DNA of 64,000 nucleotides from Natronomonas gomsonensis. Its GTDB lineage: Archaea > Halobacteriota > Halobacteria > Halobacteriales > Haloarculaceae. Of this stretch, positions 23,346-54,528 are shown one piece after another; the stretch's first letter is position 1, and every line of letters begins with the position of its first letter. The stretch lies in the NCBI RefSeq assembly GCF_013391635.1, contig NZ_JACAWU010000001.1:806001-870000 (forward strand), read 5' to 3'. The notes under the pieces are model-generated. The model ran no database searches. It had not been told where the DNA came from and saw only the letters and a program-made list of their open reading frames with translations. The position numbers were made by a program, and so were the translations under genes.

Positions 23346-24749
23346 CTACTCGCTGACGAACTCGGCCGCGTTCTCGCCGGCGATTTTCCCGAACACCGCG
23401 GCGTTCGTCAGCCCCGTTCCGCCGGGGTAGTTGTTGTAGAAGAGGCCGCCGGTGGAGTTGCCCGCGGCGAACAGTCCCGGAATGACCGTATCCGTCGTGT
23501 CGAGCACCTCCGCTTCCGGCGTGATGCCGACGCCGCCGAAGGCGAAGGTCATCCCGCCGGTGACGGGGTAGCCGGTGTACGGCGGGTCGTCCAGCGGGAG
23601 CGCCCAATTGGACTTCGGCGGGGTCACGTCGGTCGCCTCGTTGCCGTCGAGGCTGTTCGCTTCGTAGCGCTCGAAGGCGTCGTCCTCGCAGGCCTCGTTG
23701 TACGCCTCGACGGTCTCGACGGCGCGGTCGACGTCCTCGATGCCGAGGCGGTTCGCGAGCGCCTCGATGGAGTCGGCGGTCATCGACCGCGAGGGACCCA
23801 TGTGCGCCACGTCGTCGACGACTTTCGAGTCGACGATGATGAACGCCTCGTGGTAGGGCTGTTCGAAGATGCGGCGGCCGAACTTCGCGTAGGTGTGAGC
23901 GCGGGCGTCCTCGCCCTCGTCGACGAAGCGCTCGCCGTCGTGGTTGACGATGAGGCCGTACTGGTAGCCGTCGATGCGGGTGATGCCACCCTCCACGTCC
24001 GGCGACCCGGCGTCGATGAGCGCCATGTGGGCGTCGCCCCACTCGCCGTCGGATTTGGCGCCGACGTCCATCGCGGCCTCGATGGCCTCGCCGGTGTTGT
24101 ACCGGCTGCCGCGGACCTTCATGTTACCGTAGCCGGGGCCGTAATATCTGGTCCGTTTCTCCTTGCTGGAGCCGTAATCGCCCGCCGCGAGGACGACGGC
24201 GTCGCCCTCGAAGCGGACGCGGGAGCCCTCGAGGAACCCTTCGACGCCGGTGACGGTGCCGTCGTCGTCCCGGACGAGGTCCTGTGCTTCCGCACGATAG
24301 TAGATGTCGGCACCCTCCGATTCGAGGATGTCTATCAGTTCCGTCACCATGTCGGCGCCGTGGAGCCAGACGCGCCCGGCGGTGTACCCGGAGTGTGGCG
24401 CCTGATACTCCCATTCGAGCCCCTTGTGGGTCAGCCACTCGAAGGTCTCGGCGGCCTCCCGGGTCACCGTCTTCGCGAGGTCCTCGTCGGCGCGGTAGTT
24501 GGTGACCTTCATGATGTCGGAGTAGAAGTCCGAGGCCGTGTAGTCGGGGACGTTGAACTCGACGTCGAGGTCGATGTCGGCCGTCGGGATGCGGAACGAT
24601 TCGGTGAACTGCGTGTGGCCGCCGCGGTGTTCTTCCGGTGCCTTCTCCAGTATCGCCACGTCGGTGTCCTCCTCGGCGAGACGGAGGCCGGCGGCGAGAC
24701 CGGCGATACCACAGCCGACCACGACCACGTCGTACTCTTTGTGCTGCAT
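23346..24749 (-). CDS. FAD-dependent dehydrogenase, tricarballylate dehydrogenase (TcuA)-like
   Basis: A 467-residue flavoprotein of the fumarate reductase/succinate dehydrogenase family. The N-terminal dinucleotide motif is VVVVGCGIAGLAAGLRLAEE, followed by GGHTQFTESFR, a region resembling TcuA-type proteins, and a C-terminal GGMTFAFGGVGITPEAEVL and PGLFAAGNSTGG. TcuA oxidises tricarballylate to cis-aconitate; the actual substrate here could be another di- or tricarboxylate or a ketosteroid-like compound. It diverges from an SdhA paralogue across a 122-bp shared promoter region. Confidence 0.82.
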   Translation of the reverse strand: MQHKEYDVVVVGCGIAGLAAGLRLAEEDTDVAILEKAPEEHRGGHTQFTESFRIPTADIDLDVEFNVPDYTASDFYSDIMKVTNYRADEDLAKTVTREAAETFEWLTHKGLEWEYQAPHSGYTAGRVWLHGADMVTELIDILESEGADIYYRAEAQDLVRDDDGTVTGVEGFLEGSRVRFEGDAVVLAAGDYGSSKEKRTRYYGPGYGNMKVRGSRYNTGEAIEAAMDVGAKSDGEWGDAHMALIDAGSPDVEGGITRIDGYQYGLIVNHDGERFVDEGEDARAHTYAKFGRRIFEQPYHEAFIIVDSKVVDDVAHMGPSRSMTADSIEALANRLGIEDVDRAVETVEAYNEACEDDAFERYEANSLDGNEATDVTPPKSNWALPLDDPPYTGYPVTGGMTFAFGGVGITPEAEVLDTTDTVIPGLFAAGNSTGGLFYNNYPGGTGLTNAAVFGKIAGENAAEFVSE

Positions 24750-32114: not shown

Positions 32115-32753
32115 ATGGCATCGAGTATCACGGACGTGTACAGCATGTTCGACACCAGCATCGTCTCCGACGCTTTGGACAAACACGACATCGACGGCGT
32201 CATCACCGGCCTGCCGCCGGCGGCGCCCGACCAGACGACGGTCGGCCGCGCCCACACGATGCGCTTCGAGTTGGTCGACGACCCCGGCGAGCGGACGAAC
32301 TTTCCCTACGCGATGTTGAACGAACTCCGCGAGGACCGCGTCCTCGTCATCGACGGCGTCGGCCCCGACATCTCCTGTTGGGGTGGCAACGCCTCCCGAC
32401 TGGCCGAGAACGCCGGCGTCGCCGGCATGGTCATCGACGGTGGCTACCGCGACATCCCGGAGATTCGTGAGGGGTCGTTCCCGGTGTTCGCCCGCCAGCC
32501 GACGCCGAAATCCGGCCAGCGTCGCCTCACCGTCGAGGCAGTCGGCGAACCGCTGGATATCGACGGCGTGACGGTGAACCCCGACGACCTCATCGTCGCC
32601 GACGCGACGGGCGTCGTCGTCGTCCCCGCCGAACAGGCCGCCGAGGTCGCCGAAACCGCCGAGGCGACGCTCCGCGAGGAGCTACTCGTCGAGCGAAAAA
32701 TCGAAACCGGGGCGACGGTCGCCGACCTCCAGGGCGACGACCACGAGTTCTAG
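32115..32753 (+). CDS. RraA-family aldolase (4-hydroxy-4-methyl-2-oxoglutarate/4-carboxy-4-hydroxy-2-oxoadipate aldolase type)
   Basis: A 212-residue RraA-fold protein. The divalent-metal/pyruvate site motif is present (ISCWGGNASRLAENAGVAG; GGYRD with Arg112-Asp113). Catalytic members cleave 4-hydroxy-2-oxo acids to pyruvate and a second oxo acid and also decarboxylate oxaloacetate; true RraA is an RNase E inhibitor and not expected here. It diverges from the ALDH operon and overlaps the convergent class III CoA-transferase by 4 bp at a CTAG. Confidence 0.85.
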   Translation: MASSITDVYSMFDTSIVSDALDKHDIDGVITGLPPAAPDQTTVGRAHTMRFELVDDPGERTNFPYAMLNELREDRVLVIDGVGPDISCWGGNASRLAENAGVAGMVIDGGYRDIPEIREGSFPVFARQPTPKSGQRRLTVEAVGEPLDIDGVTVNPDDLIVADATGVVVVPAEQAAEVAETAEATLREELLVERKIETGATVADLQGDDHEF

Positions 32754-33937
32754 AAGACGCCCTTCTCTTTCAGTTCCTCGTACTCCGCCTCGGAGTAGCC
32801 GAGGCGCTCACACATCACCTTCCGGGTGTCTCGCCCCTTCGTCGGCGACGGTTCGATGTCGGGGAGCTCCGACCCCGAGAACCGAATCGGGATGCCGGGC
32901 ACCGATATCTCGCCGTAGTCGGGGTGGTCGATTTCGTTTATCATCTGTCGCTCCTTGAGGTGGGGGTCGTCGGCGACCTCGTCGAGTTCCTTGACCGGGC
33001 CGCAGGGGACGCCGGCGTCGAGCAGGATTTCCTCGATGTCGTCGCGCTTGCGCTCGATGGTCCACTGCTCGACCAGTTCGTCGACTTCGTCGAGGTGGTT
33101 CGACCGTTTGACGTTGCTCTCGAATCGAGGGTCGTCCTTCAAATCCTCCCGGCCGATGACCTCCAGAAGCGAGTGCCAGTGCTGGTCGGTGACGCCGAAG
33201 ATGGCGATGTAGCCGTCGGCGGTCTCGTAGACGTTGTAGGGGCTTTGGGCGAGCCCGCTGTGGCGGTTGCCGGTCCGCGGCGGCACGTCGTCGTCGTTGA
33301 AGTGCGCCGCCATCGGCGACATCAGCGTCGGGAACACCGAATCGTGCATGCTCACCTCGACGAACTGGCCCTCGCCGGTCAACTCCCGTTCGTACAGCGC
33401 GCCGAGGATGCCAGCAAGCAGGTGGATGCCGCCCATGAAGTCGCCGACGGCGATGCCGGCTTTCGTCGGCGGCCCGTCCGGAAAGCCCGTCACGTCCATC
33501 ACGCCGCTGATGGCCTGAATCGTGAGGTCCATCGCGGGGTACTCGTTGTAGGGGCCCTCCTCGCCGAAGCCGCTGCTGTGGGCGTAGATGAGTTCCGGGT
33601 TTATCTCCGAGAGTTCCTCGTAGCCGAGGCCGAGGCGCTCCATCGCTCCGACCGAGAAGTTCTCGACGAGGATGTCGGCGTCCTCGATCAACTCCTCGAA
33701 GATTTCCTTTCCCTCCTCGGTCTTGAGGTTGAGTGTCATTCCCTCCTTGTTGGAGTTGAGCATCACGAACTCCGGGGCCTCGCCGTCGTCGACGCGGGCC
33801 CGAAGCGGTTCGCCGTGTGGCGGTTCGATCTTCGTGACGTCCGCACCCATATAGGAAAGCAACAGAGAGCAGTAGGGGCCGTTGTATATCTGCCCGAGGT
33901 CGACTACGTCGATGCCGTCCAGTAACTGGTCGCTCAT
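32750..33937 (-). CDS. class III (CaiB/BaiF) CoA-transferase
   Basis: A 395-residue family III CoA-transferase, a second one in the window and clearly diverged from the first. The N-terminal motif is VVDLGQIYNGPYCSLLLSYM, and the catalytic Asp is in NEYPAMDLTIQAISG. The start is the ATG at 33937, with a TATA-like CTTAATAG about 25 bp upstream; the longer frame is antisense to the next gene. It probably activates a dicarboxylate or hydroxy acid with succinyl- or acetyl-CoA as donor (inference). It diverges from the UGSC-associated gene at 34038. Confidence 0.9.
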   Translation of the reverse strand: MSDQLLDGIDVVDLGQIYNGPYCSLLLSYMGADVTKIEPPHGEPLRARVDDGEAPEFVMLNSNKEGMTLNLKTEEGKEIFEELIEDADILVENFSVGAMERLGLGYEELSEINPELIYAHSSGFGEEGPYNEYPAMDLTIQAISGVMDVTGFPDGPPTKAGIAVGDFMGGIHLLAGILGALYERELTGEGQFVEVSMHDSVFPTLMSPMAAHFNDDDVPPRTGNRHSGLAQSPYNVYETADGYIAIFGVTDQHWHSLLEVIGREDLKDDPRFESNVKRSNHLDEVDELVEQWTIERKRDDIEEILLDAGVPCGPVKELDEVADDPHLKERQMINEIDHPDYGEISVPGIPIRFSGSELPDIEPSPTKGRDTRKVMCERLGYSEAEYEELKEKGVF

Positions 33938-34037: not shown

Positions 34038-35036
34038 ATGGCTACCGTTCCTTCTCCGGACGGGCTACCGGTCGTCGACCCCACGCGCGAGCGCGTCGAG
34101 CGGTTCCTCGAAGCCGCCGATGTCGCAGGCGAGGACCGCCTCGGTCCCTTCCCGTTGAGCGAGCGGTCGGCGACGATGGAGACCCTCGCGGCGAACGCGG
34201 TGATGGCCGGCTGTGAGGCGTCGTCCTTCCCGGTGGTGTTGGCCGCCCTCGAAGCGTCGCTGGAGCCCGAATTCAATCTCTACGGGACGCTCGCGACGAC
34301 GGAGCCACACTGGCCGATGGTCGTCGTCAACGGACCGATAGTCGAGGAACTCGACATCAACGGCGGTGCCAACGCCTTCGGTCAGGGGTCGAAAGCAAAC
34401 GCGACCATCGGGCGGGCGCTCACCTTCGTCTACATGAACGTCGCCGGCGCGACGCCGGGGCCGACCGATAAGGCGACCCACGGCGGGCCACACAAGTTCG
34501 GATTGTGTGTCGCCGAGAACGAAGCCGAGAGTCCGTGGGAACCGTTGGGCGTCGAGCGTGGCTTCGAGGAAGACGATAGCACCGTCACGGTGTTGACGAC
34601 CGAGGCGCCGCACAACATCAACGACCACGTCGCCGACAGCGCTGCTGGCGTCCTCACGACGGCCGCAAACAGCATGGCCGTCCTCGGGGCGAACACGACG
34701 TATCTCTCCGAGCGGGCCGAACCGTGTCTCGCGCTGTCGCCGGAGCACGCGGCGACTATCGCTCGTGACGGCTACTCGAAAGACGACGTCAAGCGGTTCG
34801 TCTACGACCACGCACGGGTTCCACACGAGGAACTCCGCGACCAGGGAATGTACGACACCCGCGACGGAAGCCGACCGCGGCACGTCCCGGCATCGGAACT
34901 CGACGACGACGCCGGCGTCCCCATCTGTCGTTCGCCGGAGGCCCCCGTCGTCTTCGTCGCCGGCGGCGCGGGGCGACACTCGCTTTTCCTGTCCTCGTTC
35001 GGCGACAGTCGGTCCGTGACCTGCCGGATTCGATAG
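34038..35036 (+). CDS. UGSC-associated protein of unknown function, copy A
   Basis: A 332-residue soluble protein of no functional family I can name. It is a close paralogue of the gene at 35699 (same length, no visible gaps over the first 200 residues). Strongly conserved blocks are AANAVMAGCEAS (Cys59), NGPIVEELDINGGANA, NATIGRALTFVYMN, and GPHKFGLCVAENEAESPWEP (Cys157), followed by HNINDHVADSAAGVLTTAA. From memory, bacterial proteins with these blocks sit next to or are joined with UGSC-motif proteins. There is no signal peptide. The start is the ATG at 34038. The C-terminal 40 residues differ most between copies. Confidence 0.8.
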   Translation: MATVPSPDGLPVVDPTRERVERFLEAADVAGEDRLGPFPLSERSATMETLAANAVMAGCEASSFPVVLAALEASLEPEFNLYGTLATTEPHWPMVVVNGPIVEELDINGGANAFGQGSKANATIGRALTFVYMNVAGATPGPTDKATHGGPHKFGLCVAENEAESPWEPLGVERGFEEDDSTVTVLTTEAPHNINDHVADSAAGVLTTAANSMAVLGANTTYLSERAEPCLALSPEHAATIARDGYSKDDVKRFVYDHARVPHEELRDQGMYDTRDGSRPRHVPASELDDDAGVPICRSPEAPVVFVAGGAGRHSLFLSSFGDSRSVTCRIR

Positions 35037-35056
35037 CCCCTGCCCCCCGTGCTAGG

Positions 35057-35068
35057 CAAATTTTATTG
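35057..35068 (+). promoter_or_regulatory. TATA box of the UGSC gene
   Basis: CAAATTTTATTG is centred about 29 bp upstream of the ATG at 35093, so the UGSC gene and copy B have their own promoter separate from copy A. Confidence 0.65.
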
Positions 35069-35092
35069 CCCGTGAATGGAGATAGGTAACGG

Positions 35093-35698
35093 ATGACAGA
35101 CCAAGACGAAGAGATTCTCAACCCCTTTGCCGACGAAGTCGAGGCGAAAGGCACCGTACTGGCCGACCGACTGTCGACCGTCGGCGACGCCCGAATCGGG
35201 CTGTTCTCGAACACGAAGAAGAACGCCGACCACTTCCTGCGAGAGGTCGGCGAGCGACTCGAAGCCGACCACGCTGCCGAAGTGTCCGAGGTCGTCTACA
35301 AGGACGTGGCGACGAGTGCGGCCGACGAAGCCGTCTACGAGGAGTTGCGGGAATACGACGCGGTCCTCATCGCCTACGGCGACTGTGGCTCCTGTTCGTC
35401 GTGGACGATGCACGACGCCTTCCAACTCGAGGAGGCCGGCGTCCCGACCGTCGTCTTCTGCACCGAGGAGTTCACCACCCTGTGTCAGTACGAAGCCGAA
35501 AATCAGGGCGTTCCCGGCCTGCCAATCGTCGAAATCGAACACCCGATCGCTGACCTCTCCCCGGAAGCGGTCGCGAGTGACCGCGTCACCGACGACATCC
35601 TCACGGCGGTCACCGAGGCGCTGACCAACGACGCAGGGGAGCTGCTGGACCTGTACAAGGGCAAATACACCGACGCGGCATCGAGCGAACTGGCCTGA
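35093..35698 (+). CDS. UGSC-family protein, cysteine (CGSC) form
   Basis: A 201-residue protein of the UGSC (seleno)protein family. The family motif appears as Cys98-Gly-Ser-Cys101 in AYGDCGSCSSWTMHD, with TGT codons at both cysteine positions instead of UGA. Around it is a Rossmann-like alpha/beta layout (ARIGLFSNTKKN, YDAVLIAYGDCGSCSS, GVPTVVFCTEEF). The CxxC-like pair suggests redox or thiol chemistry; the substrate is unknown. Its stop codon (35696-35698) directly abuts the ATG of copy B, so the two are translationally coupled. Confidence 0.85.
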   Translation: MTDQDEEILNPFADEVEAKGTVLADRLSTVGDARIGLFSNTKKNADHFLREVGERLEADHAAEVSEVVYKDVATSAADEAVYEELREYDAVLIAYGDCGSCSSWTMHDAFQLEEAGVPTVVFCTEEFTTLCQYEAENQGVPGLPIVEIEHPIADLSPEAVASDRVTDDILTAVTEALTNDAGELLDLYKGKYTDAASSELA

Positions 35699-36697
35699 AT
35701 GTCCGAGATAGATTCACCCGACGGACTCCCTATCGTCCAACCCACCCGCAAGCGAGTCGAGGCGTTTCTCGATTCGGTTGACCGCGACCCATCCGAGACT
35801 GTCGGGGAGGTCCCGCCTGCCTACCGGAGTGTCTCGGTGCAGAAGGCGGCTGCCAACGCGGTGATGGCCGGCTGTGAGGCGTCGTACTTCCCGGTGGTGC
35901 TGGCGGCGCTGGAGGCGACGCTGGAACCCGAGTTCAACCTCTACGGTGCCCTGGCGACCACCCACCCCTGTTGGCCCGCCGTCATCGTCAACGGGCCGAT
36001 AGTCGAGGAACTCGACATCAACGGCGGCGCGAACGCCTACGGCCAGGGGTCGAAACCCAACGCGACCATCGGGCGGGCGCTCACCTTCGTCTACATGAAC
36101 ATCGGCGGCGCCGTCCCCGGACAGGGTGACAAGGCGACCCACGGTGGCCCACACAAGTTCGGCCTGTGTGTCGCCGAGAACGAAGCCGAGAGTCCGTGGG
36201 AGCCGCTGCACGTCGAACGCGGCTTCGACGAAGACGAAAGCGCCGTCACCGTCGTCGCCTCGGAGTCACCGCACAACATCAACGACCACGTCGCCGACAG
36301 CGCTGCCGGCGTCCTCACGACGGCGGCCCACACGATGGCGACGGTCGGAACGAACCTCGCGTACCTCAACGAGCGGGGCGAACCGCACCTCGTGTTGTCG
36401 CCGGAGCACGCGGCGACTATCGCCCGCGACGGCTGGTCGAAAGACGACGTCAAGCGGTTCATCCACGACCACGCCCGGATCCCGATGTCGGAGCTCCGCG
36501 ACCAGGGGATGTTCGACGAGGCCGGCGGCGGCTGGCCGACCCACTCCCAGGGACTCCGGGAGTACCAGAAAGTCGGTCTCGCGGCCAACCCCGAGAACGT
36601 CCTCGTGACCGTCACCGGCGGCGCGGGACGACACTCACTGTTCCACCCGAGTTTCGGCGACACTGAATCGGTGACGAAGGCGATTCCCGAACGCTGA
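35699..36697 (+). CDS. UGSC-associated protein of unknown function, copy B
   Basis: A 332-residue paralogue of the protein at 34038; similarity extends to the DNA level over long stretches (for example the codons for NAVMAGCEAS and GPIVEELDINGG). Cys59 and Cys157 are kept. It starts one base after the UGSC stop codon, an arrangement that usually means the two products work in one complex or reaction. The function is not recognised. A universal stress protein gene follows after 43 bp with its own TATA box. Confidence 0.8.
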   Translation: MSEIDSPDGLPIVQPTRKRVEAFLDSVDRDPSETVGEVPPAYRSVSVQKAAANAVMAGCEASYFPVVLAALEATLEPEFNLYGALATTHPCWPAVIVNGPIVEELDINGGANAYGQGSKPNATIGRALTFVYMNIGGAVPGQGDKATHGGPHKFGLCVAENEAESPWEPLHVERGFDEDESAVTVVASESPHNINDHVADSAAGVLTTAAHTMATVGTNLAYLNERGEPHLVLSPEHAATIARDGWSKDDVKRFIHDHARIPMSELRDQGMFDEAGGGWPTHSQGLREYQKVGLAANPENVLVTVTGGAGRHSLFHPSFGDTESVTKAIPER

Positions 36698-48226: not shown

Positions 48227-48341
48227 CGAAATGCGCACGGACCGTCGATTCCGTGGGCCTCGAACGGACGATATCCGTTCATTAATACTGAATAAGTGTG
48301 TTGGGCGTTCACATCTCCTCGAAGTTCTCCTGACCGGAACG

Positions 48342-48349
48342 CTTATTCG
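48342..48349 (+). promoter_or_regulatory. TATA-like box of the cleavage-enzyme gene
   Basis: CTTATTCG is centred about 27 bp upstream of the ATG at 48372. It lies about 120 bp downstream of the tandem dyads. Confidence 0.4.
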
Positions 48350-48371
48350 GCCATGTGTGTCACTCTACCTC

Positions 48372-49307
48372 ATGAGGAAGCTCGATAAAGCGATAGTAAC
48401 GTGTGCAGTGACGGGTGCCATCCACGTGCCGACCATGTCGCCACACCTGCCGATAACCCCAGACGAAATCGTCGAGGAGGCGGTCGGGGCCGCCGAGGCG
48501 GGCGCCAGCATCGTCCACCTTCACGTCCGGGACCCCGAAAACGGCGAACCGACCTCGGACCTCGAGCTGTTCCGTGAGGTGGCCGAGCGCGTCAAGGACC
48601 GCTGTGACGCCGTCGTCCAGCCGACGACCGGCGGCGCGCCGACGATGACCGTCGAGGAGCGAACCGCCGTCGTCCCCGAACTGGAACCCGAGATGGCCTC
48701 CTGTAACATGGGGTCGATAAACTTCGGGCTCTACCCCATCCTCGACGCCTTCGAGGAGTTCAAATACGAATGGGAGACGGAGTATCTCGAGGGGACTCGG
48801 GACCTCATCTTCCCGAACTCCTTCGAATCCCTCGAAACGATTCTGCCGATGTTCGAATCACACGGCACGAAGCCGGAACTGGAGTGTTACGACGTGGGGC
48901 ACCTCTACAACGCCAAGCACTTCGTCGACCGCGGCATCCTCGAGACGCCCATCCACATCCAGTTCGTGATGGGGATTCACGGCGGCATCAGCGCCGACCA
49001 CGACCACCTGCTGCACCTGGTCGACACCGCCGAGAAACTGTTCGGGGACGAGTTCTCGTTTTCGGTCATCGGCGCCGGCCGCATGCAGATGGCCCTCGGC
49101 ACCACGGCGGTCAGCATGGGTGGACACGCCCGCGTCGGCCTCGAAGACAGCCTCTACATCCGGAAGGGCGAACTCGCGGAGAGCAACGCCCAGCAGGTCG
49201 AAAAGATGGTCGATTTGACCAAAGAGGTAACCGGCCGCGAAATTGCCTCCCCCGACGAAGTCCGGTCGTTCCTCGACTTGAAGGGACAGGAGAACGTCGC
49301 GTTCTGA
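48372..49307 (+). CDS. beta-keto acid cleavage enzyme (BKACE, DUF849 family)
   Basis: A 311-residue TIM-barrel enzyme of the 3-keto-5-aminohexanoate cleavage enzyme family. These Zn-dependent enzymes condense a beta-keto acid with acetyl-CoA, yielding acetoacetate and a new acyl-CoA. Zn ligands His49 and His51 are in IVHLHVRDP, the entry region is CAVTGAIHVPTMSPHLP, and VQPTTGG and GGHARVGLEDSLY are intact. The ATG at 48372 is chosen over a 47-residue extension reading through the promoter. An SDR and a PaaI thioesterase follow on the same strand; together they mirror the carnitine-type sequence dehydrogenase, cleavage, thioesterase. Confidence 0.9.
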   Translation: MRKLDKAIVTCAVTGAIHVPTMSPHLPITPDEIVEEAVGAAEAGASIVHLHVRDPENGEPTSDLELFREVAERVKDRCDAVVQPTTGGAPTMTVEERTAVVPELEPEMASCNMGSINFGLYPILDAFEEFKYEWETEYLEGTRDLIFPNSFESLETILPMFESHGTKPELECYDVGHLYNAKHFVDRGILETPIHIQFVMGIHGGISADHDHLLHLVDTAEKLFGDEFSFSVIGAGRMQMALGTTAVSMGGHARVGLEDSLYIRKGELAESNAQQVEKMVDLTKEVTGREIASPDEVRSFLDLKGQENVAF

Positions 49308-49349
49308 CCCCTACAGTTAAGCACACACCGAATCTATCCACGCTTCAGC

Positions 49350-50123
49350 ATGTCTGACAACAAGTTCACCGTCGATGGCTCGAGTGCTATCGTCACCGGT
49401 GCGTCGAGCGGTATCGGCCGACGAATCGCCGAGGGGTTCGCCGCCCAAGGCGTCGACACGACCATCTGCTCCCGCGAACAGGACAACGTCGACCCCGTCG
49501 CCGAGGAAATCAACGACGGCGACAGTCCGGGGAGGGTTCTCCCAATCGAGTGTGACGTTCGCGACCGCGACTCCGTCGAGGCGATGGTCGAGACCACCGT
49601 CGAGGAGTTCGGCGGCCTCGATGTCCTCGTGAACAACGCAGGCGCCGTCTTCAAATGCGATTTCAACGACCTCAGCGAGAACGGCTGGAAGACCATCGTC
49701 GACATCAACCTCCACGGCGTGTTCAACTGCACCCACGCCGCCCGCGAGGCGCTCCAGGACGGCGGCGGGTCGGTCGTCAACATCTCCAGCGTCCGGAGCC
49801 AGGAGGCCGCCCCTCACGAAACCCACTACGGTGCCGCGAAAGCCGGCGTCAACAACCTCACGAAGTCACTGGCGAGCGAGTGGGCCTCGGAGGGCGTCCG
49901 CGTCAACTGCGTCGCGCCGGGCTTTATCGCCACGCCCGGTGCGGTCACCGCCGGCGACACCGACCCCGCCGACATCGACCGCTCGGAGGTAGACCGAAAG
50001 ACCGGAACGACGGCCGAAATCGCCGACGTCGTCGAGTTCCTCGCCAGTCCGGCGGCGTCGTTCATCGACGGGGAGATCCTGACCGTCCGGGGCGTTCCAC
50101 CGCACTCCGAGGACCCGAAGTAA
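49350..50123 (+). CDS. SDR-family oxidoreductase
   Basis: A 257-residue short-chain dehydrogenase with TGASSGIGRRIAEGF, NNAG and the catalytic YGAAK. It ends in the usual GEILTVRGVPPH. Its position between the BKACE gene (42 bp upstream) and the thioesterase gene (3 bp downstream) suggests it oxidises a 3-hydroxy acid to the 3-keto acid consumed by BKACE. Confidence 0.88.
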   Translation: MSDNKFTVDGSSAIVTGASSGIGRRIAEGFAAQGVDTTICSREQDNVDPVAEEINDGDSPGRVLPIECDVRDRDSVEAMVETTVEEFGGLDVLVNNAGAVFKCDFNDLSENGWKTIVDINLHGVFNCTHAAREALQDGGGSVVNISSVRSQEAAPHETHYGAAKAGVNNLTKSLASEWASEGVRVNCVAPGFIATPGAVTAGDTDPADIDRSEVDRKTGTTAEIADVVEFLASPAASFIDGEILTVRGVPPHSEDPK

Positions 50124-50126
50124 GCC

Positions 50127-50561
50127 ATGACGAACGCACCCGAGACGGCCTCCGAGCGAGTCGTCGCCGAGACCGGCCTGCTGTCGTGGCTCGGCGTCTT
50201 CATCGAGTCCGAATCGGAGGGCCGCGCCGTACTCGGTCTGCCCCACCGCGCGGAACTCACGAATCCCAACGGCGATACGCTCCACGGAGGCGTCCTCGCG
50301 ACGCTGCTGGACAACGCCGCCGGCACCGCGCTCCGGACGGTGCTCGAAGACCCCGAGACGGCGCTCTACGCCACGACGGAGATGAACCTCTCGTATCTCC
50401 GACCGGCGACCGGCGACCTGCGGGCGGAAGCCCGCGTCCGGCGTCACGGGCGCTCGCTCGTCGTCATCGAGTGCGATATCGACTCCGAGCGCGACCCCGG
50501 CGAGTGGACCACCGTCGCCGTCGGCCGCGCCTCCTACTACGTCGACGAAAGCGGGACGTGA
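50127..50561 (+). CDS. PaaI-family hotdog thioesterase
   Basis: A 144-residue hotdog thioesterase. The PaaI signature NPNGDTLHGGVLATLLDNAAG contains the conserved Asn/His-Gly-Gly region and a catalytic Asp on the following helix. It should release free acids from CoA thioesters, plausibly the acyl-CoA made by BKACE. It is separated by 3 bp from the SDR stop and converges on the PanE-like gene with a 1-bp gap. Confidence 0.88.
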   Translation: MTNAPETASERVVAETGLLSWLGVFIESESEGRAVLGLPHRAELTNPNGDTLHGGVLATLLDNAAGTALRTVLEDPETALYATTEMNLSYLRPATGDLRAEARVRRHGRSLVVIECDIDSERDPGEWTTVAVGRASYYVDESGT

Positions 50562-50562
50562 A

Positions 50563-51477
50563 TCAGTCGAGGTAGCTCTTCTCTAGGGCTCGAACGAGGT
50601 TCGTCGCGAGTTCGTTCACCGGTACGTCGATACCCTCCTCGTGGGCGATGTCGACGATAGCACCGTTCACGTCGTCTATTTCGGTCTTCCGTTCGGCCCG
50701 GACGTCTTGCAGCATACTGGAGTAGTGGGAGTGTGACTCCTCGCAAGTGGTGACGACCTCTTCCATCGGGTCGTCCATCGGGATGTCGATGCCGCGGCGC
50801 TCGGCGACGGCCTCGGCCTCGGCGACGATTTGCTCCATCAATTTGCGCGTCTCCGGCGTCGCGATGAGTTCGCCGTTCGAGAGGTGTGTCAACGCCGCCA
50901 GTGGCTTGATGGGGAGGCTCATCAGCTGTTTGGCCCAGATGTACGCTCGCGGGTCCTCGACCACCTCGACGGGGAAGCCCCCGTCTTCGAGGGCCTCTCC
51001 GATTCGACGGGCGCCCGCGTCGTTCGTCCCGCCGAACGTCGAGGGGCCACTTGACGTCACGCGAACGTATCCCGGCTTCTCGGCGACGGCGCCCTGATAC
51101 GTCACGCCCGCGAAGGCGCGGTCCGTTCCGACAACATCGAGCAGTCGGTCGTAGTGTCTGAGACCGTTCTGTAGCGACAGCAGGTCAGTTTCGGGGCCGA
51201 TGCAGGCGGCGTGTTCGGCAAGCGCCGCCTCGGTCTGGTGGGATTTGACGAAGACGATAACGAGGTCGACGGGGCCGACTTCGCTCGCGTCGGTCGTCGC
51301 TGCGACGGCGATGTCGGTCGTCTCGCCGTCCTCGCTTTCGATCGTCAAGCCGTCCTCGTTCAACCGGTCGACGTACGACTGTCGGTAGTGCAGGAGGTGG
51401 ACGTCGTGACCGCTCTCGGTGAGGCGGCCGCCGAACAGACAGCCGAGGGCGCCGGCGCCGATGACCGCGATGTTCAC
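50563..51477 (-). CDS. ketopantoate reductase (ApbA/PanE) family protein
   Basis: A 304-residue NADPH-dependent reductase. The N-terminal Rossmann motif is VNIAVIGAGALGCLFGGRLTESG, the central VIVFVKSHQTEAAL and LQNGLRHYDRLL are typical, and the C-terminal helical domain has catalytic-Lys-like KQLMSLPIKPLAALT. The start is a GTG at 51477, directly before the first strand. True PanE makes pantoate for CoA; in this catabolic setting it may instead reduce another 2-oxo acid. Confidence 0.85.
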   Translation of the reverse strand: MNIAVIGAGALGCLFGGRLTESGHDVHLLHYRQSYVDRLNEDGLTIESEDGETTDIAVAATTDASEVGPVDLVIVFVKSHQTEAALAEHAACIGPETDLLSLQNGLRHYDRLLDVVGTDRAFAGVTYQGAVAEKPGYVRVTSSGPSTFGGTNDAGARRIGEALEDGGFPVEVVEDPRAYIWAKQLMSLPIKPLAALTHLSNGELIATPETRKLMEQIVAEAEAVAERRGIDIPMDDPMEEVVTTCEESHSHYSSMLQDVRAERKTEIDDVNGAIVDIAHEEGIDVPVNELATNLVRALEKSYLD

Positions 51478-51608
51478 GGATATCGACCCCCAGGGACGGT
51501 CGCACGTTGGTTCATACGCGTTCGTCGCGTGCTGTGCATAAATAAGTTGAGCGCCGCGTGCCCGTCGTGAAACGGAACTGACCTGTCCCAGAGGGCTTAA
51601 TACTCGTG

Positions 51609-51620
51609 GCAAATATACAC
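51609..51620 (+). promoter_or_regulatory. TATA box of the DUF6282 gene
   Basis: GCAAATATACAC is centred about 25 bp upstream of the ATG at 51639, which supports that start over the in-frame GTG at 51606. Confidence 0.6.
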
Positions 51621-51638
51621 ATACCCCGAGGACAACAG

Positions 51639-52535
51639 ATGGTAACTCAGCACCCCGTCGCCGGCGCGTGGGACACACACGTCCACGCAGGACCGGACGT
51701 AACCGACAGAAAGCACGACATCGTGGAACTCGCCCGACGCGCCGCCGATGCCGGCATGGGTGGGTTAGTTCTCAAGAACCACCATGCCCCGACGACGATG
51801 GCCGCGACGCTCGTCGAGCAGGCCTGTGACTCCGATATCCGACTCGCTTCGACGGTCGTCCTGAACCGCTCGGTCGGGGGCATCAACATCGACGCCGTCG
51901 TCGCCGCCGCGAAGATGGGTGCCAGTCGCGTCGAACTCCCGACGATGACCGCCAAACGGAACATGCTCGAACAGGGCGAACCGAAAACCATCGACCTGCT
52001 GAACGGGAACGACGAACTGAAAGACGGCGTCTGGTCGGTGCTTACCGAGACGATAAACGACGGGATGGTCGTCGGGACGGGTCACATCGGCGTCGAGGAA
52101 GTCGAGGCCGTCGTCGACGCAGTCACGGAGGTCGACGGCGAGGTCATCGTGACGCATCCGGAGTTCCACGCCGCCCGCGACGGCGTCGGCCTCACGCCCG
52201 AACGGCAGGCGCGACTGGCCCGCGATGGGGTGTACTTCGAACGCTGCTCCATCGTGACCGACGAGACCGTCCGCGAGTTGTTCCTCCCTGATGCCCCCGA
52301 GGCGGCCCACGAGGCATTCGCCGACGGCGCGATGTTCGAAGGAATCGTCGCCGGCATCGAAGCGACCGGCCCCGAACACAACTTGCTGTCGACGGACTAC
52401 GGCCAACCCGGTCGGATGTCGCCGCCGGACGCGCTGGCGGCGTTCCACGCCGACCTCGAATCCGCCGGCATCCCGCGTGCCGACATCGAGCAGATGGCGC
52501 GGGACAACCCCGAAACCATCTTCGGAGGTGCCTGA
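51639..52535 (+). CDS. DUF6282-type amidohydrolase-like protein
   Basis: A 298-residue protein with a metal-dependent hydrolase layout: DTHVHAGPD near residue 13 (HxH), KNHHAPT, GTGHIGVEEV, VTHPEF and STDYGQPG near the end, the usual positions of barrel metal ligands. I recognise it as DUF6282-like; no member function is known to me. It may open a lactone or hydrolyse an amide in this pathway. The LLM gene follows 2 bp after its stop with a Shine-Dalgarno inside the 3' end, so the two are coupled. Confidence 0.8.
   Translation: MVTQHPVAGAWDTHVHAGPDVTDRKHDIVELARRAADAGMGGLVLKNHHAPTTMAATLVEQACDSDIRLASTVVLNRSVGGINIDAVVAAAKMGASRVELPTMTAKRNMLEQGEPKTIDLLNGNDELKDGVWSVLTETINDGMVVGTGHIGVEEVEAVVDAVTEVDGEVIVTHPEFHAARDGVGLTPERQARLARDGVYFERCSIVTDETVRELFLPDAPEAAHEAFADGAMFEGIVAGIEATGPEHNLLSTDYGQPGRMSPPDALAAFHADLESAGIPRADIEQMARDNPETIFGGA
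52524..52530 (+). promoter_or_regulatory. Shine-Dalgarno site for the LLM gene
   Basis: GGAGGTG lies 7 bases before the GTG at 52538, inside the last codons of the DUF6282 gene. It supports the GTG start and translational coupling. Confidence 0.6.
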
Positions 52536-52537
52536 CC

Positions 52538-53536
52538 GTGGACGTCAGCCTGATGGGGCTGACCCAACATCCGGGTGACCGCGACCCCGAGCGGTGTCTC
52601 GCGGAGTTGCTCGAACAGGCTCGAATCGCCGACGGAAACAGCTTCGAGGGGCTGTTCGTCGGCGAACACCACTTCACCGACGACATCTACTTCGACAACT
52701 TCCAGACGCTGGCCCGCCTCGCTGCGGAGTTCGACGGCGACGTCCGCGTCGGGACGAGCGTCTGTCTGTTGCCGCTGCACAACCCCGCGTTGGTCGCCGA
52801 GCGCGTCGCCACGCTCGACGTGATCTCGGGCGGCAACGTCGTCTTCGGTGCCGCCGCAGGCTACCGCGACGCCGAGTTCGACACCGTCGGCGTCGACAAG
52901 GCCGAACGCGCTGGCCGCGTCACCGAAGGCGTCGAGATCCTCCGGGCGCTGTGGTCCGAAGACGACGTCTCCTACGACGGCGAGCACTACGCCTTCGAGG
53001 ACGTGACGCTCCGTCCCCGGCCGGTACAGGAGTCGGGGCCGCCGATATGGCTCGGCGGGTCGGCACCCTCGGCCGTCCGACGCGCCGCCGCCCTCGGCGA
53101 CGCGTGGCTCATCGACCCCGTCTCGCCCGTCTCGAAACTGAAGAAGGCCGTCGGGCTCTACGAGCGCGAACTCACCGAGGAGCCGTCCTGTCGGCCGATT
53201 CGACGCGACGTGTACGTCGCCGAGACGACCGAAAAAGCCATCGACACCGCCGCGCCGTACATCCTCGACAAGTTCGACTCGCTGTCGGAGTGGGGCGTCA
53301 TCGACGACGACGGCGAGGATTTGAGCAGACGGGAGCGCTTCGACCGGGTCAGCGAGGGCCGCTATCTCATCGGCACGCCCGACGAGGTGGTCGCCGAACT
53401 GGAGGAACTCAACGAGACGCTCGGCGTCGACCACCTCGTCGCCCGCGTCCAGTGGCCCGGAATGGACCACGAACGCGCCGTCGACGCAATCGAACTGCTC
53501 GGAGAGGAGGTAATCCCGCGCGTCGCCGACCTGTGA
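52538..53536 (+). CDS. LLM-class flavin-dependent oxidoreductase
   Basis: A 332-residue luciferase-like TIM-barrel flavoprotein (FMN or F420). Typical segments are FEGLFVGEHHF, GTSVCLLPLHNPALVAERVA, GAAAGYRDAEFD, PPIWLGGSAPSAVRRAAALGD and a C-terminal GTPDEVVAELEE. FMN-type members are monooxygenases that need a separate flavin reductase; one is encoded at 56257. F420-type members are dehydrogenases or reductases, also possible in haloarchaea. A GTG start with strong Shine-Dalgarno is used. Confidence 0.88.
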   Translation: MDVSLMGLTQHPGDRDPERCLAELLEQARIADGNSFEGLFVGEHHFTDDIYFDNFQTLARLAAEFDGDVRVGTSVCLLPLHNPALVAERVATLDVISGGNVVFGAAAGYRDAEFDTVGVDKAERAGRVTEGVEILRALWSEDDVSYDGEHYAFEDVTLRPRPVQESGPPIWLGGSAPSAVRRAAALGDAWLIDPVSPVSKLKKAVGLYERELTEEPSCRPIRRDVYVAETTEKAIDTAAPYILDKFDSLSEWGVIDDDGEDLSRRERFDRVSEGRYLIGTPDEVVAELEELNETLGVDHLVARVQWPGMDHERAVDAIELLGEEVIPRVADL

Positions 53537-53546
53537 TTCGGGACAA

Positions 53547-53555
53547 GGTATAAGG
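53547..53555 (+). promoter_or_regulatory. TATA box of the CitE-like gene
   Basis: GGTATAAGG is centred 27 bp upstream of the ATG at 53578, so this gene can be transcribed separately from the DUF6282-LLM pair. Confidence 0.6.
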
Positions 53556-53577
53556 ACTCCTCCGACGAGTTCGATAC

Positions 53578-54528
53578 ATGGAACCCGCTCGCTCAGTGCT
53601 GTTCATCCCCGGGAATCGTGAGGGTTGGGTCGAGAGCGCCCACGAGAACGACGCCGACGTCATCATCCTCGATTTGGAGGACTCGGTCCCGCCCGAAGAG
53701 AAGGAGGCCGCCCGCGACATCGTCGCCGAACACCTCCCGAAACTCCACGCCGAGGGCCAACGCGTCCACGTCCGCGTCAACGCCCACCCCAACGCAAGCG
53801 AGGGCTTCGCCGAACACGATTTCGAGGCCATCGCCTGTGAGGAACTGGAGGCGATAACCGTCCCGAAGGTCAGAGAGCCGAACGACATCGAACGGCTCGA
53901 CACCGTGTTGACCCACATCGAGCGCCGGGAGGGGCTGGAGGTCGGCGGCATCGAGTTGACCGTCAGCGTCGAAACCGCCCAAGCGATGCGGCAGGTGTAC
54001 GAACTCTGTACGGCCGCCGACCGCGTCGGCACCATCGGCTGTGGCGCCGTGAAAGGCACCGACACGAACCGCGCGCTCGGCTTCGAGTGGACCGGCCCCG
54101 GACGGGAGGGACTGGAGACGCTGCACCTCCGCGAACAGGCGCTGATGGACGCCCGCGCCGCCGAAATCGAGTTCCCGCTCGCCGGCACGTACGTCGACGT
54201 CGGCGACATCGAGGGGCTCCGGAAGGACATGCAGTTCTCCCGGGAGATGGGCTACACCGGTTACCTCGTCATCCATCCCTCCCACGTCGAACACGCCAAC
54301 GAAATCTTCCTGCCCGACGCCGACACCGTCGAGTACTGGGTCGGCGCGATGGAGGCGCTACTGGAGGCGGAAAACGAGGGCAAAAGCGCCGTCCGTTACG
54401 AGGGCGACATGATAGACATCGCCAACATCGAGACCGCCCGCCGCTACATCGAGTACGCTGAGGCGTTCGCCGACGATCTCGATGTCGACTTCGCTGGCGT
54501 CGACTTCTCGGAACTACGCCCCGAATAA
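53578..54528 (+). CDS. HpcH/HpaI aldolase/CitE-like lyase
   Basis: A 316-residue TIM-barrel lyase of the CitE family, which includes citrate lyase beta subunit, malyl-CoA/citramalyl-CoA lyases and thioesterases. The N-terminal PGNREGWVESAHENDADV and DLEDSVPPEEKEAAR (Glu34, Asp35) plus RVNAH match. No citrate lyase alpha or acyl-carrier genes are present, so cleavage of a CoA thioester such as malyl-, citramalyl- or another 3-hydroxyacyl-CoA is more likely. It fits downstream of CoA-transferase and MaoC hydratase steps encoded elsewhere in the window. Confidence 0.88.
   Translation: MEPARSVLFIPGNREGWVESAHENDADVIILDLEDSVPPEEKEAARDIVAEHLPKLHAEGQRVHVRVNAHPNASEGFAEHDFEAIACEELEAITVPKVREPNDIERLDTVLTHIERREGLEVGGIELTVSVETAQAMRQVYELCTAADRVGTIGCGAVKGTDTNRALGFEWTGPGREGLETLHLREQALMDARAAEIEFPLAGTYVDVGDIEGLRKDMQFSREMGYTGYLVIHPSHVEHANEIFLPDADTVEYWVGAMEALLEAENEGKSAVRYEGDMIDIANIETARRYIEYAEAFADDLDVDFAGVDFSELRPE

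Follow-up and report, generated by a model that had tools for sequence, protein, structure and literature searches.

A UGSC-family protein and its duplicated partner in a haloarchaeon: a candidate thioredoxin-dependent enzyme related to the selenocysteine domain of GrdB and PrdB

A 64,000-nucleotide stretch of the Natronomonas gomsonensis genome (contig NZ_JACAWU010000001.1, positions 806,001 to 870,000; hereafter the window) contains a three-gene cassette in which a cysteine-containing member of the UGSC family lies between two copies, A and B, of a 332-aa partner protein. The pair recurs in bacteria and archaea, most of the UGSC relatives we found carry selenocysteine (Sec) where the window protein has cysteine, UGSC profiles match the Sec-bearing domain of GrdB and PrdB, and thioredoxin genes accompany the pair in some relatives. 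We lean, if only slightly, toward UGSC and the partner forming a two-subunit, thioredoxin-run enzyme whose substrate, a small imported organic acid, is reduced or reductively cleaved. The original prediction, made from the DNA letters, contained neither the GrdB/PrdB relationship nor the Sec state of most relatives nor the linkage to thioredoxin reductase.

Recurrence of the UGSC-partner pair

All three genes of the cassette are encoded on the forward strand. As first described, a 201-aa UGSC protein (35093..35698) with a Cys98-Gly-Ser-Cys101 motif, encoded by TGT GGC TCC TGT (35384..35395, +), separates two 332-aa paralogues, copy A (34038..35036) and copy B (35699..36697), and its stop codon (35696-35698) directly abuts the ATG of copy B. 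The copies are identical at 230 of 331 residues (69%, E 5e-170), align gap-free over their first 200 residues and share Cys59 (codons 34212-34214 in A and 35873-35875 in B) and Cys157, again in agreement with the earlier description. The UGSC protein scores above the curated cut-offs of NF041046 (171.4 bits, cut-off 125) and PF24696 (162.9 bits, cut-off 25). It is the sole match to the family in the 3.4 Mb Natronomonas genome, and A and B are the only matches to copy B in a genome-wide search.

We scanned genome contigs with a partner alignment and kept the best 80 of 586 loci, in which 97 partner genes score above 100 bits. A UGSC gene lies on the same strand within 1 kb of 85 of these 97 (76 upstream, nine downstream). 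The other 12 comprise four with UGSC 1.3-2.9 kb upstream (L034, L058, L061, L087), two that begin fewer than 50 bases from a contig edge (L048, L052), one on a 4.2 kb contig that has no UGSC (L029), and five shorter Poribacteria partner genes (about 260 profile positions) in loci with no UGSC (L091, L093, L095, L097, L099). The partner is also present in 24 records of a plasmid collection; in the 21 counted (three Neorhizobium records, H21-H23, were left out), UGSC is adjacent or fused to it in 20, Haladaptatus being the exception. In the reverse direction, 23 of 30 loci picked from a class-wide genome sample through the UGSC family model alone have a partner within 1.5 kb, the distance to which the seven misses were inspected. 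Sporomusa, Vibrio, Variovorax boronicumulans and Neorhizobium have natural fusions in which UGSC precedes the partner. The UGSC match is a weak one in the Sporomusa fusion (28.3 bits, cut-off 25) and falls slightly under the cut-off in that of Vibrio (24.9 bits). Because the pair recurs in both bacteria and archaea and includes fusions, the earlier proposal that UGSC and its partner form one enzyme is well founded. Neither of the two outcomes named in advance as refuting it, a lack of recurrent linkage or a confident match of the 332-aa protein to an enzyme unrelated to thiol chemistry, was observed. A sample of 392 genomes of the phylum had the partner in 5, and none of three listed genomes of the same genus has it; therefore, the cassette is accessory.

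Copies A and B match no Pfam or NCBIfam family above cut-off, and searches of the PDB with copy B or a family profile found no relative, leaving the 332-aa protein with no enzyme match in either the library or the PDB searches. Its structure model is confident (pLDDT 94.4), and the best Foldseek match to it is a class I fumarase (1.3e-3), with VIA Z values of at most 5.4, a weak fold match. The alpha domain of class I fumarases holds a cluster with three cysteine ligands; the partner has no obvious site of this kind, because just one of its cysteines, Cys59, is nearly invariant. We regard the fumarase fold match as too weak to use; by sequence there is no fumarase match and no solved relative. 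GrdE was rejected as an ancestor of the partner (0.4% against five GrdE-type sequences, and no PF09338 row for A or B). The partner can safely be called a subunit, not a known enzyme.

Selenocysteine state and homology to GrdB and PrdB

Across 101 loci (80 genome and 21 plasmid) we examined 107 UGSC hits. Position 98 is an in-frame TGA, read as selenocysteine, in 85 of them, cysteine in 18 and neither in four (Met in two fusions, Gly in one and unreadable in one). The residues that follow Sec98 are GSC in 69 hits, GGC in 7, GAC in 6 and GSS in 3; by these counts Cys101 is replaceable, whereas residues other than Sec or Cys are rare at position 98. In an alignment of 78 UGSC sequences (hits above 100 bits with less than 80% mutual identity, limits that exclude the Met, Gly and other weak forms), position 98 is C or U in every row and position 104 is Trp in 69. 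Cys-type members were seen in haloarchaea, Arthrobacter and Roseovarius. On the partner side, Cys59 is present in 78 of 78 aligned and 122 of 123 readable sequences, the exception being Ala in one Neorhizobium. Cys157, which had been singled out together with Cys59, is not supported as a core residue: it is retained in 68 of 78 aligned sequences and 101 of 125 in a wider set, and Cys59 alone is nearly universal.

Several metagenome-assembled entries titled Bordetella parapertussis (L069, L076, L078, L096, L106) contain Sec-type UGSC pairs; these titles seem to have been assigned automatically and in error. A plasmid of Paracoccus ferrooxidans has selB (L192:12323-14098) at a distance of about 3.3 kb from the partner gene, and its annotation splits the UGSC stretch into two small hypothetical genes.

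In Chloroflexi, UGSC is present in 94 of 294 genomes from the class of one metagenome-assembled genome (G392), and five genomes of this class (G392, G426, G432, G449, G450) hold at least 11 copies each, with the listed matches carrying TGA. These multi-copy genomes represent a large predicted selenoprotein expansion. Among the listed papers on SAR202/Dehalococcoidia, none mentions a selenoprotein.

Selenocysteine also appears to be used within the phylum of the window strain. Two genomes of one family in the same phylum (G208 and G218), each with two mcrA-type genes, encode UGSC with TGA at position 98 (L009 at 681-1280; L005, L021, L022, L172-L174 and L179). A tRNA-Sec is present in both (76.5 and 75.6 bits, against a gathering score of 47); its anticodon is TCA, and it has a nine-pair acceptor and four-pair T stem, the 9/4 form that excerpts of PMC9499178 describe as archaeal. 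SepSecS matches at 412 bits in G218, whereas the G208 match is split into two pieces (238 and 214 bits); this match is not specific alone, because 4 of 14 control genomes also score with the model. Archaeal EF-1 alpha, EF-2, S7, S12 and RNA polymerase A'' genes (read by eye) share a 19.5 kb stretch with the G218 UGSC gene, and contamination is unlikely since its neighbors are of archaeal type. Taken from their gene content, these Mcr-bearing Halobacteriota are predicted to use selenocysteine, which would place it beyond the Methanococcales, Methanopyrales and Asgard archaea to which archaeal Sec is limited in the sections consulted of a 2026 review (PMC13188914).

The UGSC profile matched the Sec domain of GrdB (PF07355, glycine/sarcosine/betaine reductase selenoprotein B) at 93.8% over 89 columns, and PrdB-like proteins at 62.8%, in both cases with Sec aligned on Sec; three of the 15 PrdB-like genes (L123, L125, L136) were left out of the latter alignment. 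Cys98 of the window protein aligns with the GrdB selenocysteine. When the U/CxxC motif was masked, the values were 59.2% for GrdB, 61.7% for PrdB-like proteins and 71.5% for both combined, and the halves of split alignments gave 93.6/94.1% for GrdB and 48.6/76.1% for PrdB-like proteins. Profiles of 39 other families reached at most 6.4% and reversed profiles at most 0.6%. The PF07355 model itself gave no row for UGSC in a Pfam scan at E values up to 1. On the strength of these profile comparisons, UGSC is probably a stand-alone version of the Sec-bearing domain of GrdB and PrdB, with homology at the superfamily level. Separately, full-length GrdB-like genes with an in-frame TGA are present in three genomes (L109, L110, L111, L122, L130), and a PF09338 (GrdE-type) gene directly adjoins four of these five (seen with L137-L141).

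Thioredoxin linkage and a proposed reaction

In Arthrobacter, trxB, trxA, the partner and UGSC form a single run in which trxA overlaps the partner start by four bases, and trxB, trxA and UGSC each score above their NCBIfam cut-offs. Among Cys-type UGSC genes, 9 of 18 have a thioredoxin reductase (TrxR)-like gene no more than 5 kb away, versus 1 of 85 Sec-type genes (Fisher p 1.8e-7). A scan of five of these nine TrxR-like genes put three above the TIGR01292 cut-off and two, those at L187 and L191, below it.

In glycine and proline reductases, the Sec subunit helps to cleave the alpha-carbon bond of the substrate and is then regenerated by dithiols. In UGSC the corresponding nucleophile would be Cys98, which is Sec in most of the relatives found and is located where a helix begins after a strand; the partner would bind the substrate and supply the nearly invariant Cys59. 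Cys/Sec98 would attack the partner-held substrate, Cys101 would resolve the resulting bond, with Cys59 doing so where Cys101 is missing, and thioredoxin and a TrxR-like flavoprotein would restore the thiols. In the window, the Cys-type UGSC may serve both partner copies, alongside genes for a TRAP/TAXI importer, a CoA-transferase and C-C lyases. The pairing, the Sec/Cys state, the profile homology, the thioredoxin linkage in some relatives and the selection on both copies are observed, whereas the reductase activity, the roles of nucleophile and partner, and the class of substrate are inferred. The chemistry of the glycine and proline reductases is outlined in the same excerpts of PMC13188914.

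A number of observations weigh against this proposal. No reaction is known for the pair. The GrdB match covers 89 columns only, and its E-value is that of a single comparison, not of a database search; sequence searches with GrdB, UGSC and the partner turned up no relative of solved structure, and the partner does not match GrdE-type sequences (the 0.4% given above). The window has no TrxR-like match, nor do half of the Cys-type loci within 5 kb. Moreover, five of the nine loci counted with the TrxR-like profile had themselves supplied the sequences for it, these nine include two sets of kin (two Neorhizobium; Halosolutus and Halostagnicola), and the Cys-type genes come mostly from the plasmid collection. 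Lastly, two fusions carry Met98 and a Neorhizobium fusion lacks Cys59. Because of the Met98 fusions, some UGSC members have another role or are degenerate; together with the Cys59-less member, they are a warning that not all pairs share the proposed mechanism.

The fusions in question have further features. Those with Met98, from Sporomusa and Vibrio (L018:9281-11005 and L019:9323-11008), read GDMGTS and ADMGTS at the motif, retain Cys59, and have aconitase X and DUF126 genes nearby. The Neorhizobium galegae fusion (L200, L020) reads GHCSTC, has Ala for Cys59 and is followed by a TrxR-like match; its frame is broken in strain VafX2 (L020).

The pair might instead be a non-redox enzyme, such as a lyase, isomerase or hydrolase, with Cys/Sec98 as its nucleophile or in acid-base catalysis and with thioredoxin genes that serve only to keep this residue reduced. 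We consider this unlikely: trxB and trxA run together with the partner and UGSC in Arthrobacter, Sec is retained in 85 of 107 hits, the Asp/Glu racemase superfamily was rejected for UGSC at 1.0-1.2% against two alignments (9 and 6 PF01177 sequences), and the fumarase hits are too weak for reliance.

Its links with a defined partner, with the active site of GrdB and PrdB and with thioredoxin reductase move UGSC from a selenoprotein without a function to an assayable reaction class, its first testable function. Because Cys forms can be made in ordinary hosts without selenocysteine, the usual obstacle to the study of selenoenzymes is removed.

Partner duplication, gene neighborhood and comparison with known systems

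A tree built from 23 partner sequences places window A with A of Halalkalicoccus jeotgali and window B with its B (support 100 each), Halorientalis A and B are sisters (73), and A and B of Halosolutus/Halostagnicola form a separate, distant clade. From these groupings, the A-UGSC-B arrangement arose at least twice in haloarchaea. Between the window and H. jeotgali, dN/dS is 0.092 for A, 0.094 for UGSC and 0.072 for B; all three genes are under purifying selection. The suggestion that the duplication allows an alternative or heteromeric partner fits this selection and the repeated origin, but retention of the arrangement does not demonstrate it. The single-partner UGSC loci of other haloarchaea (Natrinema) would suit a different account, in which A and B are redundant and B is a mere dose copy. 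We find that account rather improbable, given that the A/B split predates the divergence of the window strain and Halalkalicoccus, that both copies have dN/dS below 0.1, and that the arrangement arose separately in the Halosolutus/Halostagnicola line. A layout of one UGSC gene followed by two partner genes also occurs outside haloarchaea, in a Chloroflexi locus (L034:7432-10990).

The putative TATA element of the UGSC gene, TTTTATT (35061..35067, +), is separated from the UGSC ATG by 25 bases, and the stretch from GTGCTAGGCAAAT to the ATG, with the flanks of the element, is largely conserved in H. jeotgali, where the TATA itself differs at one base. TTTWWW is enriched across the whole window (42 versus a shuffle mean of 16), and a promoter ahead of the gene is plausible, not proven. 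A sigma-70 scan found no promoter, as expected in an archaeon.

Family matches confirm the three genes previously named beside the cassette: a universal stress protein, Usp (PF00582; 36741..37160, +), a TRAP transporter fused permease (TIGR02123; 37217..39403, -) and a TAXI family TRAP solute-binding protein (TIGR02122; 40331..41494, +). On the other side lie a CaiB/BaiF-type CoA-transferase (PF02515; 32750..33937, -), a candidate for a later step, and an RraA-like aldolase family protein (PF03737; 32115..32753, +). H. jeotgali has the same order, CoA-transferase, A, UGSC, B, Usp, TRAP permease, SDR, TAXI protein and ALDH, on a plasmid typed as conjugative in PLSDB; the window has one extra SDR-like gene before ALDH (window SDR and ALDH read by eye). 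In Halorientalis and Haladaptatus, genes for a beta-keto acid cleavage enzyme (BKACE), a ketopantoate-reductase-like protein, DUF6282, LLM, a CoA-transferase and a CoA ester lyase stand beside the cassette. The window holds this set at 48231-54528 minus the CoA-transferase, which is at 32750-33937 instead. It includes a BKACE (PF05853; 48231..49307, +) above the cut-off of NF053538, 3,5-dioxohexanoate:acetyl-CoA acetone transferase (458 bits, cut-off 430), and DUF6282, LLM oxidoreductase and CoA ester lyase genes (51606..54528, +), relatives of which flank UGSC in Halorientalis. By its gene families, the region around the cassette is an organic-acid catabolic island, which does not in itself name the UGSC substrate. 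About 9 kb from the cassette, an FAD-dependent dehydrogenase (23346-24749) scores above the cut-off for TcuA, tricarballylate dehydrogenase (NF006130, 444.6 versus 369 bits).

A neighbor survey used 20 seed proteins over the 101 loci. Commonest among the best 80 of 586 genome loci were TTT binding proteins (31/80) and CaiB (17/80), and because of this no substrate can be named from the neighbors. Import of the substrate by TRAP/TAXI, as originally suggested, is plausible, and the same genes occur beside the cassette in H. jeotgali. The Usp gene is a neighbor only and does not serve as functional evidence, since none of the 80 genome loci and just three of the 21 plasmid loci have a related gene. 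Annotated phosphosulfolactate synthases lie near the pairs of Arthrobacter (L190:5641-6429) and Natrinema zhouii (L186:3808-4275); a sulfonate link was rejected as not recurrent, the Arthrobacter seed having matched its own locus only (1/21 plasmid, 0/80 genome loci). The varied neighborhoods, with few genes in a same-strand run with the pair, could point to UGSC being a detoxifying or carrier thiol protein that binds metals or electrophiles, with the partner as acceptor and no catabolic substrate. This seems decidedly improbable to us, since binding-protein and catabolic genes recur at the frequencies just given and at least 11 copies in single genomes look like substrate diversification. A thioredoxin fold for UGSC, suggested by its CxxC/UxxC motif and by a printed statement in an excerpt of PMC2398784, is very improbable indeed, as the AlphaFold model (pLDDT 94.7) shows alternating beta/alpha, Rossmann-like structure, the profiles match GrdB/PrdB instead, and thioredoxin is not among the 50 matches listed by either structure aligner, although that last result excludes nothing.

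UGSC has been known as a major selenoprotein family in ocean-sampling data, and a UGSC/Unknown_1 domain fusion was reported in 2008 (both in excerpts of PMC2398784); there, as in the fusions described above, UGSC is joined to a conserved domain, and Unknown_1 may or may not be the 332-aa partner. The listed UGSC literature comprises surveys of selenoproteomes, reviews and one tRNA-Sec method; in the parts examined, neither a reaction nor a defined partner gene is given. To the family as defined by NF041046/PF24696, the present analysis adds a specific partner, its Cys59 and the relationship to GrdB and PrdB.

PrdB, the Sec-containing subunit of D-proline reductase, functions together with a second subunit. 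Compared through PrdB-like PF07355 genes, it has a short Sec domain, as UGSC does; the second subunit of proline reductase is PrdA, whereas the UGSC partner belongs to no named family, in a comparison that covered GrdE-type sequences. GrdB shares E-x-x-G-I/V-P and H-x-x-G segments with UGSC, which is without the GrdB N-terminal part. The third cysteine of the GrdB motif, named as UxxCxxC in excerpts of PMC13188914, is not found in UGSC, where the window protein reads CGSCSSWT with Trp at 104. GrdB systems also use a GrdE-type partner, and UGSC has none. We speculate, tentatively and with some doubt, that UGSC and its partner represent a large, unrecognized branch of reductive enzymes with selenol/thiol chemistry. 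It would stand beside glycine and proline reductase as a third sister, in which a new 332-aa substrate-binding subunit replaces the pyruvoyl-type subunit. Such a branch might act on many imported organic acids, in aerobes and halophiles as well, and would span the genomes with at least 11 copies, a selenoprotein in Mcr-bearing Halobacteriota and a heteromeric A-UGSC-B form in haloarchaea with Cys in place of Sec.

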